NCBI GenBank assembly: GCA_035502855.1
Contig: DATJTX010000015.1
Span: 1-64,000, forward strand
Direction: 5' to 3'
DNA from: Candidatus Baltobacteraceae bacterium
GTDB lineage: Bacteria > Vulcanimicrobiota > Vulcanimicrobiia > Vulcanimicrobiales > Vulcanimicrobiaceae
Length of the DNA: 64,000 bases
Position numbers and translations under genes: made by a program. The notes below the pieces were generated by a model, which worked only from the letters and a program-made list of their open reading frames with translations, had not been told where the DNA came from and ran no database searches. The first letter of the stretch is position 1. The number at the start of each line of letters is the position of its first letter. This document shows positions 8,868-57,784 of the stretch, piece by piece.

Positions 8868-9666
8868 CGTTAACCGCACCCTTCGACAGGCTCAGGGTGA
8901 CAGAGGGGCTGTGGCTCAGGGTGACAGAGGGCGCTGCGCTCGTCGTGACTGAGGACTGCGATATCAACGTGTCAACCTGAGCTTGTCGAAGGATAATTCC
9001 AAACGCCTTTTCGAGTTCTTCGATCAAGACCGGTTTGACCGAGTCGACGCTTACCGCCCTCCCGCACTCGTGCGCGATCGAGGTGATGCCGTGATCGGTC
9101 AATCCGCACGGATTGATCAAGCGATCGTAGTCGAGCGCCGTCGTCACGTTGAGCGCGATACCGTGAAGCGAAACCATCTTCTGTACTGCAAGGCCGACGG
9201 CGCAGATCTGGTTGCGGCCAACCCACACCCCCGCATGCTCCTTCCAACGCTCCGCCGCGATTCCGTACTGCGCGACGGCCTCGATGACGGCACTCTCGAG
9301 GGAGCGCACGAGCGGCACGACCTCGCGGAAGCGCTCCAGACGCCGAATCGGATACACGACCAACTGCCCGGGACCGTGATACGTGACGTCCCCGCCCCGC
9401 TCGATTTCCACCAGGTCGACCCCGCGGGCGGCAAGCGCTTGCGGCGAGAGCAAAACGTTCTCGCGATTGGCTTTGCGGCCGAGCGTGATCACCGGTGTAT
9501 GCTCGACGAAGATCCAGGTGTCGGGCTCGCGCCCCTCGCGCACCGCCTCGTGCAACGCGTGCTGAATCTCCCACACCTCGCGATATGGACGCGTGCCTAG
9601 ATCGAGCAGCCGCGCCGGTTTGGCGCTACTTTGCCGCGACCGCGGTCTTGGGCTTGGGATTGACAA
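8857..9666 (-). CDS. lipB: Octanoyltransferase, with altered active-site lysine
   Basis: Transfers octanoate from acyl carrier protein to lipoyl domains, supplying LipA. 269 aa. The family signature GGDVTYHGPGQLVVYPI (91-107) and the catalytic Cys187 in INPCGLTD are present. The segment that normally carries the catalytic lysine (K-I/L-A-A-I-G) reads RNQICAVGL, with Gln153 in that place. Residues from about 226 to the end are encoded by the inserted repeat and are not part of the family. The ATG at 9666 lies 41 bp inside the end of lpdA; later starts are only TTG/CTG-type. Confidence 0.9.
   Translation of the reverse strand: MSIPSPRPRSRQSSAKPARLLDLGTRPYREVWEIQHALHEAVREGREPDTWIFVEHTPVITLGRKANRENVLLSPQALAARGVDLVEIERGGDVTYHGPGQLVVYPIRRLERFREVVPLVRSLESAVIEAVAQYGIAAERWKEHAGVWVGRNQICAVGLAVQKMVSLHGIALNVTTALDYDRLINPCGLTDHGITSIAHECGRAVSVDSVKPVLIEELEKAFGIILRQAQVDTLISQSSVTTSAAPSVTLSHSPSVTLSLSKGAVNDGN
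8880..8992. repeat. 113-bp element with inverted ends inside the 3' end of lipB
   Basis: The left end (8880-8901) begins CCTTCGACAGGCTCAGG and the right end (8971-8992) is nearly its reverse complement (ends GAGCTTGTCGAAGG): 20 of 22 positions agree. Between them GGCTCAGGGTGACAGAGGG occurs twice as a direct repeat. Related single ends occur at 27993-28016 and 55835-55876. In lipB it is read in frame and produces a low-complexity tail (VTLSLSKG), so it was probably acquired by insertion. Confidence 0.75.
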
Positions 9667-27992: not shown

Positions 27993-28016
27993 TGTCATCC
28001 TGAGCTTGTCGAAGGA
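27993..28016. repeat. Dispersed repeat end, supplies the scoB ribosome site
   Basis: TGTCATCCTGAGC followed by TTGTCGAAGGA: the same sequence as the right end of the 8880-8992 element. Its terminal GAAGGA (28011-28016) stands 9 nt before the scoB ATG and is the only Shine-Dalgarno-like stretch there. Confidence 0.75.
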
Positions 28017-54676: not shown

Positions 54677-55813
54677 ATGGCATACCCGATGGATCCCGCC
54701 CTGGTCGAGATCGAGCGCAAGGTCGAGGCCGGCACGCCGCTCTCGATGGAAGACGGGCTCACGCTCTACCGCACGCGCGACATCCACAATCTCGGTCGGA
54801 TCGCGCGCAGCGCCAAGGAACGCAAGAGCGGGAAGAATGTCTTCTACGTCCTCAACCGCTACATCAACTCGACCAACGTGTGCTTTGCGAACTGCAAGTT
54901 CTGCTCGTTTGCGGCGGACGAGTTCAAGGAGCCCGAGCGCGTCTTTCGGATGACGGCCGATCAGGTCTGGACGAAGGCGATCGAGACCGGCACCAACTTC
55001 AACCAGCTCCACATCGTCGGCGGACACGATCCGCGCCAGCTCTCGCTCGATTACTGGCTGCCGCTGATGCGCCGCTTCAAGGAAGCGCTGCCGCACGTGC
55101 AGCTCTCGCTCTTCACCGCCGCCGAGATCGAATACATGGCCAAGCGCCATCGCCTGAGCTTCCCCGATATCATCGCAGCGCTCAAAGAAGCCGGCTTGGA
55201 CAACGTCAACGGCGGTGCAGCCGAAATCTTGGGTGAGCCGACCCGCTCGAAAATCTGCGCCAATAAAGTCTCGGGCGAAAACTGGTTGGTGATCCACGAA
55301 GAACTGCACCGCCAGGGGATCGCCTCGAACGCGACCATCCTCTACGGGCACGTCGAATCGCTCGAAGACCGCGTCGATCACTTCATCAAGCTGCGGGAAT
55401 CGCAGGAACGCTCGCCGGGCTTCAACGCGTTCATTCCGCTCGCGTTTCATCCCGACGGCAACGAACTCTCGTACTGCGGCTGGACCAGCGGCCTCGACGA
55501 TCTGCGCACGTTCGCGGTCGCGCGGCTGATGCTCAACAATTTCGACCACATCAAAGCCTACTGGATGATCCAGGGTTTGAAAGTCTGCCAGGTGGCGCTC
55601 CACTACGGCGCCGACGACATGGACGGCACGCACGGGTCGACCGACGAGGAGATGATCTATCACTCGGCCGGCACGCAGTCGGGTCAATACGTCGACGACC
55701 GCGAGTTCCGCCGTCTGATCGAAGCCGCGGGCTACGTTCCGGTCCGCCGCAACAGCACCTACGAAACATTCCCGTACGACTGGACGCCGCCGAAAGAACT
55801 GGTGACCGCGTAG
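54677..55813 (+). CDS. mqnE: Aminofutalosine synthase (radical SAM)
   Basis: 378 aa. Second enzyme of the futalosine menaquinone route: joins chorismate-derived enolpyruvoyl benzoate to S-adenosylmethionine. The radical-SAM cysteines are Cys69, Cys73 and Cys76 (CFANCKFC), with GG-HDP (HIVGGHDPRQLSLDYW) and NGGAAEIL as family blocks. It is followed by mqnA and mqnC. MqnB and MqnD are not in the window. Confidence 0.95.
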   Translation: MAYPMDPALVEIERKVEAGTPLSMEDGLTLYRTRDIHNLGRIARSAKERKSGKNVFYVLNRYINSTNVCFANCKFCSFAADEFKEPERVFRMTADQVWTKAIETGTNFNQLHIVGGHDPRQLSLDYWLPLMRRFKEALPHVQLSLFTAAEIEYMAKRHRLSFPDIIAALKEAGLDNVNGGAAEILGEPTRSKICANKVSGENWLVIHEELHRQGIASNATILYGHVESLEDRVDHFIKLRESQERSPGFNAFIPLAFHPDGNELSYCGWTSGLDDLRTFAVARLMLNNFDHIKAYWMIQGLKVCQVALHYGADDMDGTHGSTDEEMIYHSAGTQSGQYVDDREFRRLIEAAGYVPVRRNSTYETFPYDWTPPKELVTA

Positions 55814-55882
55814 ATGAGTTTGCGCTGCGGTCGTCCTTCGACTACACTCGCTGCGCTCGTTACGCTCAGGATGACAAGATGA
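55814..55882 (+). CDS. 22-codon upstream reading frame repeating the mqnA start
   Basis: ATG at 55814, one base after the mqnE stop, encodes MSLRCGR, the same seven residues that start mqnA, then repeat-derived residues (PSTTLAALVTLRMTR) and a stop TGA overlapping the mqnA ATG as ATGA. The two seven-codon stretches differ only at third or synonymous positions (AGT/AGC, TTG/TTA, CGC/CGT, CGT/AGG). It looks like the original 5' end of mqnA, separated from the gene by the repeat and kept as a coupled leader. Whether it is translated is unknown. Confidence 0.55.
   Translation: MSLRCGRPSTTLAALVTLRMTR
55835..55876. repeat. Dispersed repeat, before mqnA
   Basis: CCTTCGAC, an insert CTACACTCGCTGCGCTCGTT, then CTCAGGATGACA: the longer form of the repeat family seen at 8880-8992 and 27993-28016. 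The AGGA (55868-55871) stands 7 nt before the mqnA ATG. Confidence 0.75.
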
Positions 55883-56715
55883 GCTTACGTTGCGGTAGGA
55901 TAGTGTACACGAACGATTTGCCGGTCTACACGGCCTTCGATGCGGGCGTCATCGACTATCCGGGGACGCTGCATGCCGACGTGCCGGCGCGCCTGAACGC
56001 GATGCTGATCGGCGGCGACCTCGACTTGAGTCCGGTCAGCGCGTTCGCCTGGGCGCAACATGCCCAGGAGCTGGTGCTGCTCCCCGATCTGTGCATCGGC
56101 GCGCGCGACGAGGTGGTGTCGGTGGTCCTGGTTTCGCAAACGCCTCCCGCGCTGCTCGGCGGCGTCGAGGTTGCGCTCACCAGCGAGTCGGCCAGCGGAC
56201 GCAATTTGTTGCGGGTCTTGCTCGAGCGGCGCTATGGAGTGCAGCCGCGATATGCCGACGAGGCCCTTCCGTTGGAAGTCGCCGCGTCCGGTCGTCCGGC
56301 GCTGCTCATCGGCGACTCGGCGATCGACGCGCTCGAACGCTTCCCGCGCGAGCACGTCTACGACCTGGGAACGCTGTGGCATGAGTGGACCGGACAGCAA
56401 ACCGTCTTCGCCGTTTGGGCGGCGCGCCGTGACGCGTACGAGCGTGATCCCGAGGCGATTCGAGCCTGCATGCACGCGCTGACCGATAGCTACACCTGGT
56501 CGCGTTCGCACATGAGTGAGGTGATCGCCACGGCGCAGCGGACCAAAGCGCGCCCACCCGGATTCTACGAAGCCTATTACGGCAAATTGAACTTCACGTT
56601 CCACTCGGCCGCTCAGAGCGGTCTGAGCGCGTTTTGTCGCGAGCTGCACGCGATCGGAGCGATCCCGTCGGTTCCGCATTCGCTTCCGGAGGTCATCGGT
56701 GTCGTCTCTCGCTAG
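55879..56715 (+). CDS. mqnA: Chorismate dehydratase
   Basis: 278 aa. First enzyme of the futalosine pathway, dehydrating chorismate to 3-enolpyruvoyl benzoate. Family blocks are RIVYTNDLPVYTAF, DLDLSPVSAFAWAQ and a periplasmic-binding-protein-like fold. Its end overlaps the mqnC start by 17 bp. The repeat and the 22-codon leader sit at its start. Confidence 0.92.
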   Translation: MSLRCGRIVYTNDLPVYTAFDAGVIDYPGTLHADVPARLNAMLIGGDLDLSPVSAFAWAQHAQELVLLPDLCIGARDEVVSVVLVSQTPPALLGGVEVALTSESASGRNLLRVLLERRYGVQPRYADEALPLEVAASGRPALLIGDSAIDALERFPREHVYDLGTLWHEWTGQQTVFAVWAARRDAYERDPEAIRACMHALTDSYTWSRSHMSEVIATAQRTKARPPGFYEAYYGKLNFTFHSAAQSGLSAFCRELHAIGAIPSVPHSLPEVIGVVSR

Positions 56716-57784
56716 TCTGCTCGAGCACGCCGCAGCCGGCGGCCGCCTTTCATTTGACGAAGGGCTGCGGCTCTACCGTGAAGCCGACTTGCACGAATTG
56801 GGTATGGCTGCGCACGCGCGCCGGATGCAGCTCCACGCGCCCGACGTCGTGACCTACGTGATCGACACGACGATCGATTACACCAACGTCTGCAACGTCC
56901 ATTGCACCTTCTGCGCGTTCTTCCGGCCCGAACATCACAAAGAAGGCCGCACGCTCTCGCACGAGCAGGTGCTCGCGCGCGTGAAATACGCGGCCGATCA
57001 GGGCGCGACGCAGATCATGATCCAAGGCGGCGTGAATCCCGATCTACCGCTGAGCTGGTACGAAGAACTCTTCATCTGCGTGCGGACCGAGTTTCCGAAC
57101 GTGGATATTCATTCGCTCTCGGTCTCCGAGATCACGGGCCTTGCGAAAGTCGAGGGAATGACGCCTCGCGCCGTGCTCGAGCGATTGAAGGCCGCCGGGC
57201 TGAAGTCGCTTCCGGGCGCGGGAGCCGAAATTCTCGTCGAGCGCGTACGCAAGCGGATTTCGGCGCGCAAGGTGACGCCCGCCGAATGGCTCGACGTGAT
57301 GCGTCAGGCGCACCATCTCGGCATGCCGACCACTGCGACGATGATGTACGGCTCGATCGAGACCGATGAAGAACGTATCGAGCATATGCATGTACTTCGC
57401 GACCTGCAAGATGAGACAGGCGGCTTCACCGCCTTCATTCCGTGGTTCTACGTGCCGTTCAAGACGCCGCTGCGCGGAAAGGAAGCGACGGCGCTCGAGT
57501 ACTTGCGTGTGCTCGCGATCTCGCGCCTCTATCTAGACAACTTCGCCCACCTTCAAGCATCCTGGCTCACGCCGGGCCTGAAGATGGGGCAGCTCGCTCT
57601 CTTTTACGGGTGCGACGATATGGGCGGCGTGATCATCGAGGATCGCGTGGTTCGCGACGCGGGAGCAACCAACGAAGCGACCCGGCGCGACCTCGAGCAG
57701 GCCGTTATCGGTGCGGGCTTCCGCCCGGTCATTCGCGACACGTATTGGAACGTGCGTCGCGATATGGCCCTCGCGACGGCTTAG
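56699..57784 (+). CDS. mqnC: Cyclic dehypoxanthinylfutalosine synthase (radical SAM)
   Basis: 361 aa. Cyclises dehypoxanthine futalosine. Cys65, Cys69 and Cys72 (CNVHCTFC) hold the 4Fe-4S cluster; QIMIQGGVNPDLPLSW and LPGAGAEIL are family blocks. The start ATGTCGTC (or an internal one) overlaps mqnA. The stop overlaps the end of the convergent PAS gene by 4 bp. Confidence 0.95.
   Translation: MSSLASLLEHAAAGGRLSFDEGLRLYREADLHELGMAAHARRMQLHAPDVVTYVIDTTIDYTNVCNVHCTFCAFFRPEHHKEGRTLSHEQVLARVKYAADQGATQIMIQGGVNPDLPLSWYEELFICVRTEFPNVDIHSLSVSEITGLAKVEGMTPRAVLERLKAAGLKSLPGAGAEILVERVRKRISARKVTPAEWLDVMRQAHHLGMPTTATMMYGSIETDEERIEHMHVLRDLQDETGGFTAFIPWFYVPFKTPLRGKEATALEYLRVLAISRLYLDNFAHLQASWLTPGLKMGQLALFYGCDDMGGVIIEDRVVRDAGATNEATRRDLEQAVIGAGFRPVIRDTYWNVRRDMALATA

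Follow-up and report, generated by a model that had tools for sequence, protein, structure and literature searches.

Background

In translational coupling, the stop codon of one gene adjoins or overlaps the start codon of the next, whose expression depends on the first being translated. A different body of work concerns short palindromic repeats that are dispersed over bacterial genomes, of which the Rickettsia palindromic elements (RPEs) are found in frame inside unrelated protein genes (PMC10969869, PMC3733652). The CGTC-tagged REPs (Di Nocera et al. 2013) are marked terminally by CGTC, or else by TGTC or CCTC, and fold into a stem of 8-9 bp with a 4-5 nt loop, followed by a few unpaired bases, mostly CCA; they come without a dedicated transposase and reportedly have no known mover (PMC3733652). 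The IS200/IS605 elements, which are relatives of the RAYTs, make no large target duplications (PMC2817692). Here I describe a gene start at which a dispersed palindromic repeat lies between two copies of the first codons of mqnA.

Results

The window, i.e. the whole stretch of 64,000 nucleotides that was analysed, is part of contig C15 of a genome assembly of 3.33 Mb with a completeness of 96.6%; its family relatives are carried as Candidatus Eremiobacterota in public records. On the forward strand it contains a tight mqnE-mqnA-mqnC operon, consisting of mqnE (aminofutalosine synthase homologue, a 378-aa ORF, 54677..55813, with its TAG stop at 55811-55813), mqnA (chorismate dehydratase homologue, 278 aa, 55879..56715), which is a gene of the menaquinone (vitamin K2) pathway, and mqnC as the next gene (56699..57784). 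Orthologues of mqnE in the relatives are 77-92% identical and lie immediately 5' of mqnA. As no alternative in-frame start codon exists in the 400 nt upstream of 55879, I take this position as the start of mqnA.

The 65 bases between the mqnE TAG and the mqnA ATG are made up of the duplicated first codons of mqnA and one dispersed repeat. The original prediction had pointed out that MSLRCGR is encoded at 55814-55834 and again at 55879-55899, and both are present in the sequence. Alignment of the repeat flanks delimits the duplication to 20 nt, comprising the MSLRCG codons and two bases from the TAG of mqnE and stopping short of codon 7. The first copy (AGATGAGTTTGCGCTGCGGT, 55812..55831), at which mqnA of the relatives starts, and the second (AGATGAGCTTACGTTGCGGT, 55877..55896), the present mqnA start, are identical at 17 of 20 positions and abut both ends of the repeat. 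When up to three mismatches are allowed, the window has two occurrences of the joint pattern where 0.07 would be expected, and none of 100 shuffles had two. The differences had been described as synonymous only, in four codons; they are synonymous, but number three, all of them transitions (AGT/AGC, TTG/TTA and CGC/CGT). The fourth synonymous codon probably lies outside the duplication, since many other copies of the repeat begin on the left with CGTCCTTCGA, so that the CGT of codon 7 in the first copy is most likely repeat sequence; judged from this alignment, its match to Arg7 of mqnA is most likely coincidental.

Starting in the first copy, a leader ORF of 22 codons (MSLRCGRPSTTLAALVTLRMTR*, 55814..55882, forward strand), read from the sequence and putatively translated, runs through the repeat. 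Its ATG directly adjoins the mqnE stop (TAG-ATG at 55811-55816), and, as had been predicted, its TGA (55880-55882) overlaps the ATG of mqnA (55879-55881), giving ATGA at 55879-55882. Taken alone this overlap is unremarkable, because any gene starting with ATGA gives it in one of three frames.

That the stretch between the copies (CGTCCTTCGACT...GCTCAGGATGACA, 55832..55876, forward strand) is a dispersed repeat, as originally proposed, is borne out by genome-wide counts and by alignment with other copies: the core CTCAGGATGAC has 65 exact occurrences in the genome versus none for the reversed control, and the looser core CTCRSGRTGAC 184 versus three. Further cores are situated within the window at 8891-8901, 8915-8925 and 27994-28004. 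On the opposite strand, one copy (L042, contig C15, ~28.0 kb) has AAGGA ~9 nt upstream of what is likely the ATG of a CoA-transferase-subunit-like ORF, possibly a ribosome-binding site supplied by the repeat. For the survey 144 copies were read, piecewise. The junction copy folds with a 7-bp outer stem and a branched interior of ~30 nt, and other copies have a core of 22-45 nt between their ends. Five copies lie in frame within protein genes of this genome, namely those of thiolase (L048), RecF (L040), dihydrolipoyl acyltransferase (L044) and IleRS (L050) and another long ORF (L121), with ~8-12 residues gained in each; insertions also occur outside genes. The copy in the acyltransferase is situated in its linker, and similar repeats at different positions are seen in the same linker of three relatives (G041, G066, G064; L156, L157, L159), a pattern that suggests repeated insertion into flexible linkers. 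The Y1_Tnp domain (PF01797) had no match in this 96.6% complete genome and did have matches in five control genomes. An Rfam scan of the mqnE/mqnA junction was without a match, and a known RNA element at this place was dropped as a candidate. A literature search for the core TCATCCTGAGC and for repeats in Eremiobacterota returned nothing relevant.

The mqnE/mqnA junction was resolved for 54 further members of the family. The start of mqnA usually overlaps or abuts the mqnE stop, as TAGTG in G001, G055 and G056, as TAG-ATG in G066 and as ATGA in G004; in G066 the junction reads TAG-ATGAGC, with mqnA starting at the place of the first copy. As the single mqnA start of the relatives usually lies against the mqnE stop, the first copy is, by this comparison, the ancestral position of the start. 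The doubled start is found in none of the 54 junctions and the leader ORF in no other genome compared; a leader without the repeat, the finding that the original prediction had named as contrary to it, was not found among the relatives. Eight relatives (G005, G009, G011, G013, G015, G019, G020 and G078) also have a repeat of this kind between mqnE and mqnA, but placed differently and with the mqnA start not doubled. In several of these mqnE takes its end from the repeat, and each of the eight has a repeat-derived, purine-rich AAGG/AGGA/AGGG motif 3-13 bases before the mqnA start. In three more genomes (G041, G061 and G003; L017, L099 and L105) a different GC-rich palindrome, of the CCCGC..GAAGCGGTCGGGGCCCCC type, lengthens the C-terminus of MqnE in frame.

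The flanks of the 59 solitary repeat copies with both ends were compared, with 3,422 mismatched flank pairs as control. Two copies exceed all mismatched pairs (maximum 12): the mqnA junction, with a score of 14, and a copy beside tRNA-Glu(TTC) (L056, contig C23, ~36.0 kb), with a duplication of 16/16. The latter (1452-1467 and 1544-1559) copies the 5' end of the tRNA, with the repeat upstream of tRNA-Glu(TTC), and its target is single copy in six other genomes. A candidate for a third long duplication (L187, 13/15) was dropped, with only partial matches in the relatives. In the thiolase gene, at a site that is empty in relatives, the insertion replaced ~10 bases and made no duplication; an 11-nt flanking repeat there was rejected as a target duplication and put down to coincidence, because its second copy consists of conserved codons (EPSA) that are also present in relatives. 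As most solitary copies lack a flanking duplication and the thiolase insertion replaced bases, a fixed duplication is no rule for this repeat. Judging from the flanks, some of its insertions come with long target duplications of variable length. Such size and variability are unusual for something made by transposition and, like the lack of a known mover, count against insertion with target duplication.

With respect to translation, a candidate ribosome-binding site, AGGA, is located within the repeat at 55868..55871, 7 nt before the mqnA ATG, and its predicted duplex amounts to -4.1 kcal/mol versus only -2.8 for the leader start. A 5-bp hairpin, GCTCA/TGAGC (55864..55884, fold -4.6 kcal/mol), built from the repeat and the second target copy, is predicted over the mqnA start codon. 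The idea that the codons of the second copy were selected for an open start was rejected: they are not less structured than those of the first copy, and their structure is not unusual among random synonymous variants. Divergence of the copies was simulated with two 18-nt sequences, of which the one in mqnA was limited to synonymous change. With the first copy free, all three differences come out synonymous in 3-6% of the runs (P about 0.03-0.06, a value that rests on three transitions and on a pattern picked after the fact), and with the first copy held they always are. The synonymous-only pattern thus weakly favours some coding constraint on the first copy.

Discussion

The single start in the relatives, the ancestral position of the first copy, the exact abutment of both copies on the repeat and the 16-nt duplication at tRNA-Glu together support insertion with target duplication, an explanation that was already part of the original prediction and that now stands on good ground. 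It is probable, though by no means certain, that an insertion of the repeat with a target duplication of ~20 bases made the leader, and that the leader keeps mqnE and mqnA coupled. The repeat would have landed a short way into the 5' end of mqnA, with the target duplicated from the mqnE stop up to and including the sixth mqnA codon. Of the two copies, the downstream one would have become the mqnA start, with the AGGA of the repeat as its ribosome-binding site, whereas the upstream copy would have kept the old start beside the mqnE stop and opened the ORF through the repeat. Ribosomes ending mqnE would then meet the leader ATG directly and restart there; on crossing the repeat they would open the predicted hairpin over the mqnA start, and at the ATGA the same or new ribosomes would start mqnA, aided by the AGGA seven bases upstream. 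In this way the leader would preserve the old, tight coupling of both genes over 65 inserted bases.

Alternatively, the repeat and the duplicated start may initially have extended the N-terminus of MqnA in frame, both copies drifting synonymously within one protein, until a change of a single base reduced their spacing from 66 to 65 and made the leader. The occurrence of the repeat in frame inside five other ORFs of this genome, the synonymous nature of all differences and a spacing that misses a multiple of three by a single base are in line with such a history. However, its intermediate is not seen, the single-base step has to be assumed and the repeat also inserts outside genes, for which reasons I consider it unlikely. 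A joining of two diverged alleles, in which recombination at the repeat set a foreign mqnA behind a resident stub, is more unlikely still. In that case the synonymous differences would simply be differences between orthologues, and in some relatives the repeat indeed lies just upstream of mqnA. The identity ranks of mqnA, which differ from those of mqnE and mqnC, are in line with a joining and had prompted the related idea that mqnA was replaced by a foreign copy. The trees do not support this: G001 is the sister of this genome in the mqnA tree as well as in that of mqnC, and the AU test accepts this placement (p 0.62). The two shared bases before the ATG and the exact abutment, furthermore, are predicted by a duplication, not by a joining.

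The original prediction had it that retained identity at the protein level implies translation of both copies. Identity does not imply this with any force, because an in-frame extension or a joining of alleles would preserve it as well; what stands is the mild preference for coding constraint in the simulations (P 0.03-0.06). From the anatomy of the junction, the leader is nevertheless likely to be translated today. Any selection on it beyond its start and stop is at most faintly indicated, and selection on the peptide itself is unlikely. That the leader is a regulatory peptide of which the sequence matters, e.g. by stalling, would account for the synonymous-only pattern, which is improbable with the first copy free to change, but the peptide is conserved in no relative, its remainder is simply one reading frame of the repeat and its likeness to the mqnA start is explained by descent, which makes this a very improbable reading. 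Finally, that the assembly falsely joined two strains at the repeat is hardly credible: the named near relatives are metagenome assemblies and repeats do mislead assemblers, but the source would already need a repeat right after codon 6 of mqnA, and the clean anatomy of a target duplication is repeated at another site.

Insertion with target duplication, the preferred explanation, shows in a concrete case how a gene, hit by a small repeat, may continue from a duplicated start, its former start now opening a coupled leader ORF. As such it is a clear example of dispersed repeats reshaping gene starts, although an importance of the leader peptide itself is doubtful. It also points to a repeat family in Eremiobacterota that enters proteins in frame and can leave long target duplications; no description of this family was found. 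Tentatively, and with more doubt than confidence, this could be generalised to a family that moves without a RAYT and leaves target duplications of ~15-20 nt, thus duplicating functional gene ends; since the ends of the repeat carry AGGA, it could act as a portable ribosome-binding site at gene junctions and give rise to coupled leader ORFs de novo. As repeats of the CGTC type reportedly lack a known mover (PMC3733652), pairs of filled and empty sites like those described here are the sort of data required for finding one.

With the GTAG-tagged REPs and their RAYTs the repeat shares its abundance, short length and palindromic nature, but its consensus has no GTAG tag and the genome no Y1_Tnp (RAYT) gene. 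It is like the CGTC-tagged REPs in that the junction copy and many others start with CGTC (CGTCCTTCGA) and have a palindromic core; the loops, however, are variable and mostly longer, the stem is short and the CCA tail is absent. As to a dedicated transposase, the search covered Y1_Tnp and gave no match. Like the RPEs, it is a small dispersed palindromic repeat found in frame inside unrelated protein genes, but it measures ~22-50 nt versus ~150 bp in the first described RPEs, differs in sequence and phylum, and at this junction goes with a doubled gene start and a separate leader ORF instead of a fused protein. The element acts in the manner of both RPEs and CGTC-type REPs, but as it departs from the stem-loop dimensions of the CGTC type and its genome has no RAYT, I file it under neither. 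Least to be expected were the long target duplications, the IS200/IS605 elements making no large ones. The junction itself resembles known cases of translational coupling, with the stops and starts of mqnE, leader and mqnA adjacent or overlapping, and with relatives linking mqnE and mqnA directly via ATGA or TAGTG. It differs from the usual arrangement in that the two putatively coupled genes are separated by a leader that arose through duplication, and its mode of action would be that of ordinary translational coupling, kept after an insertion.
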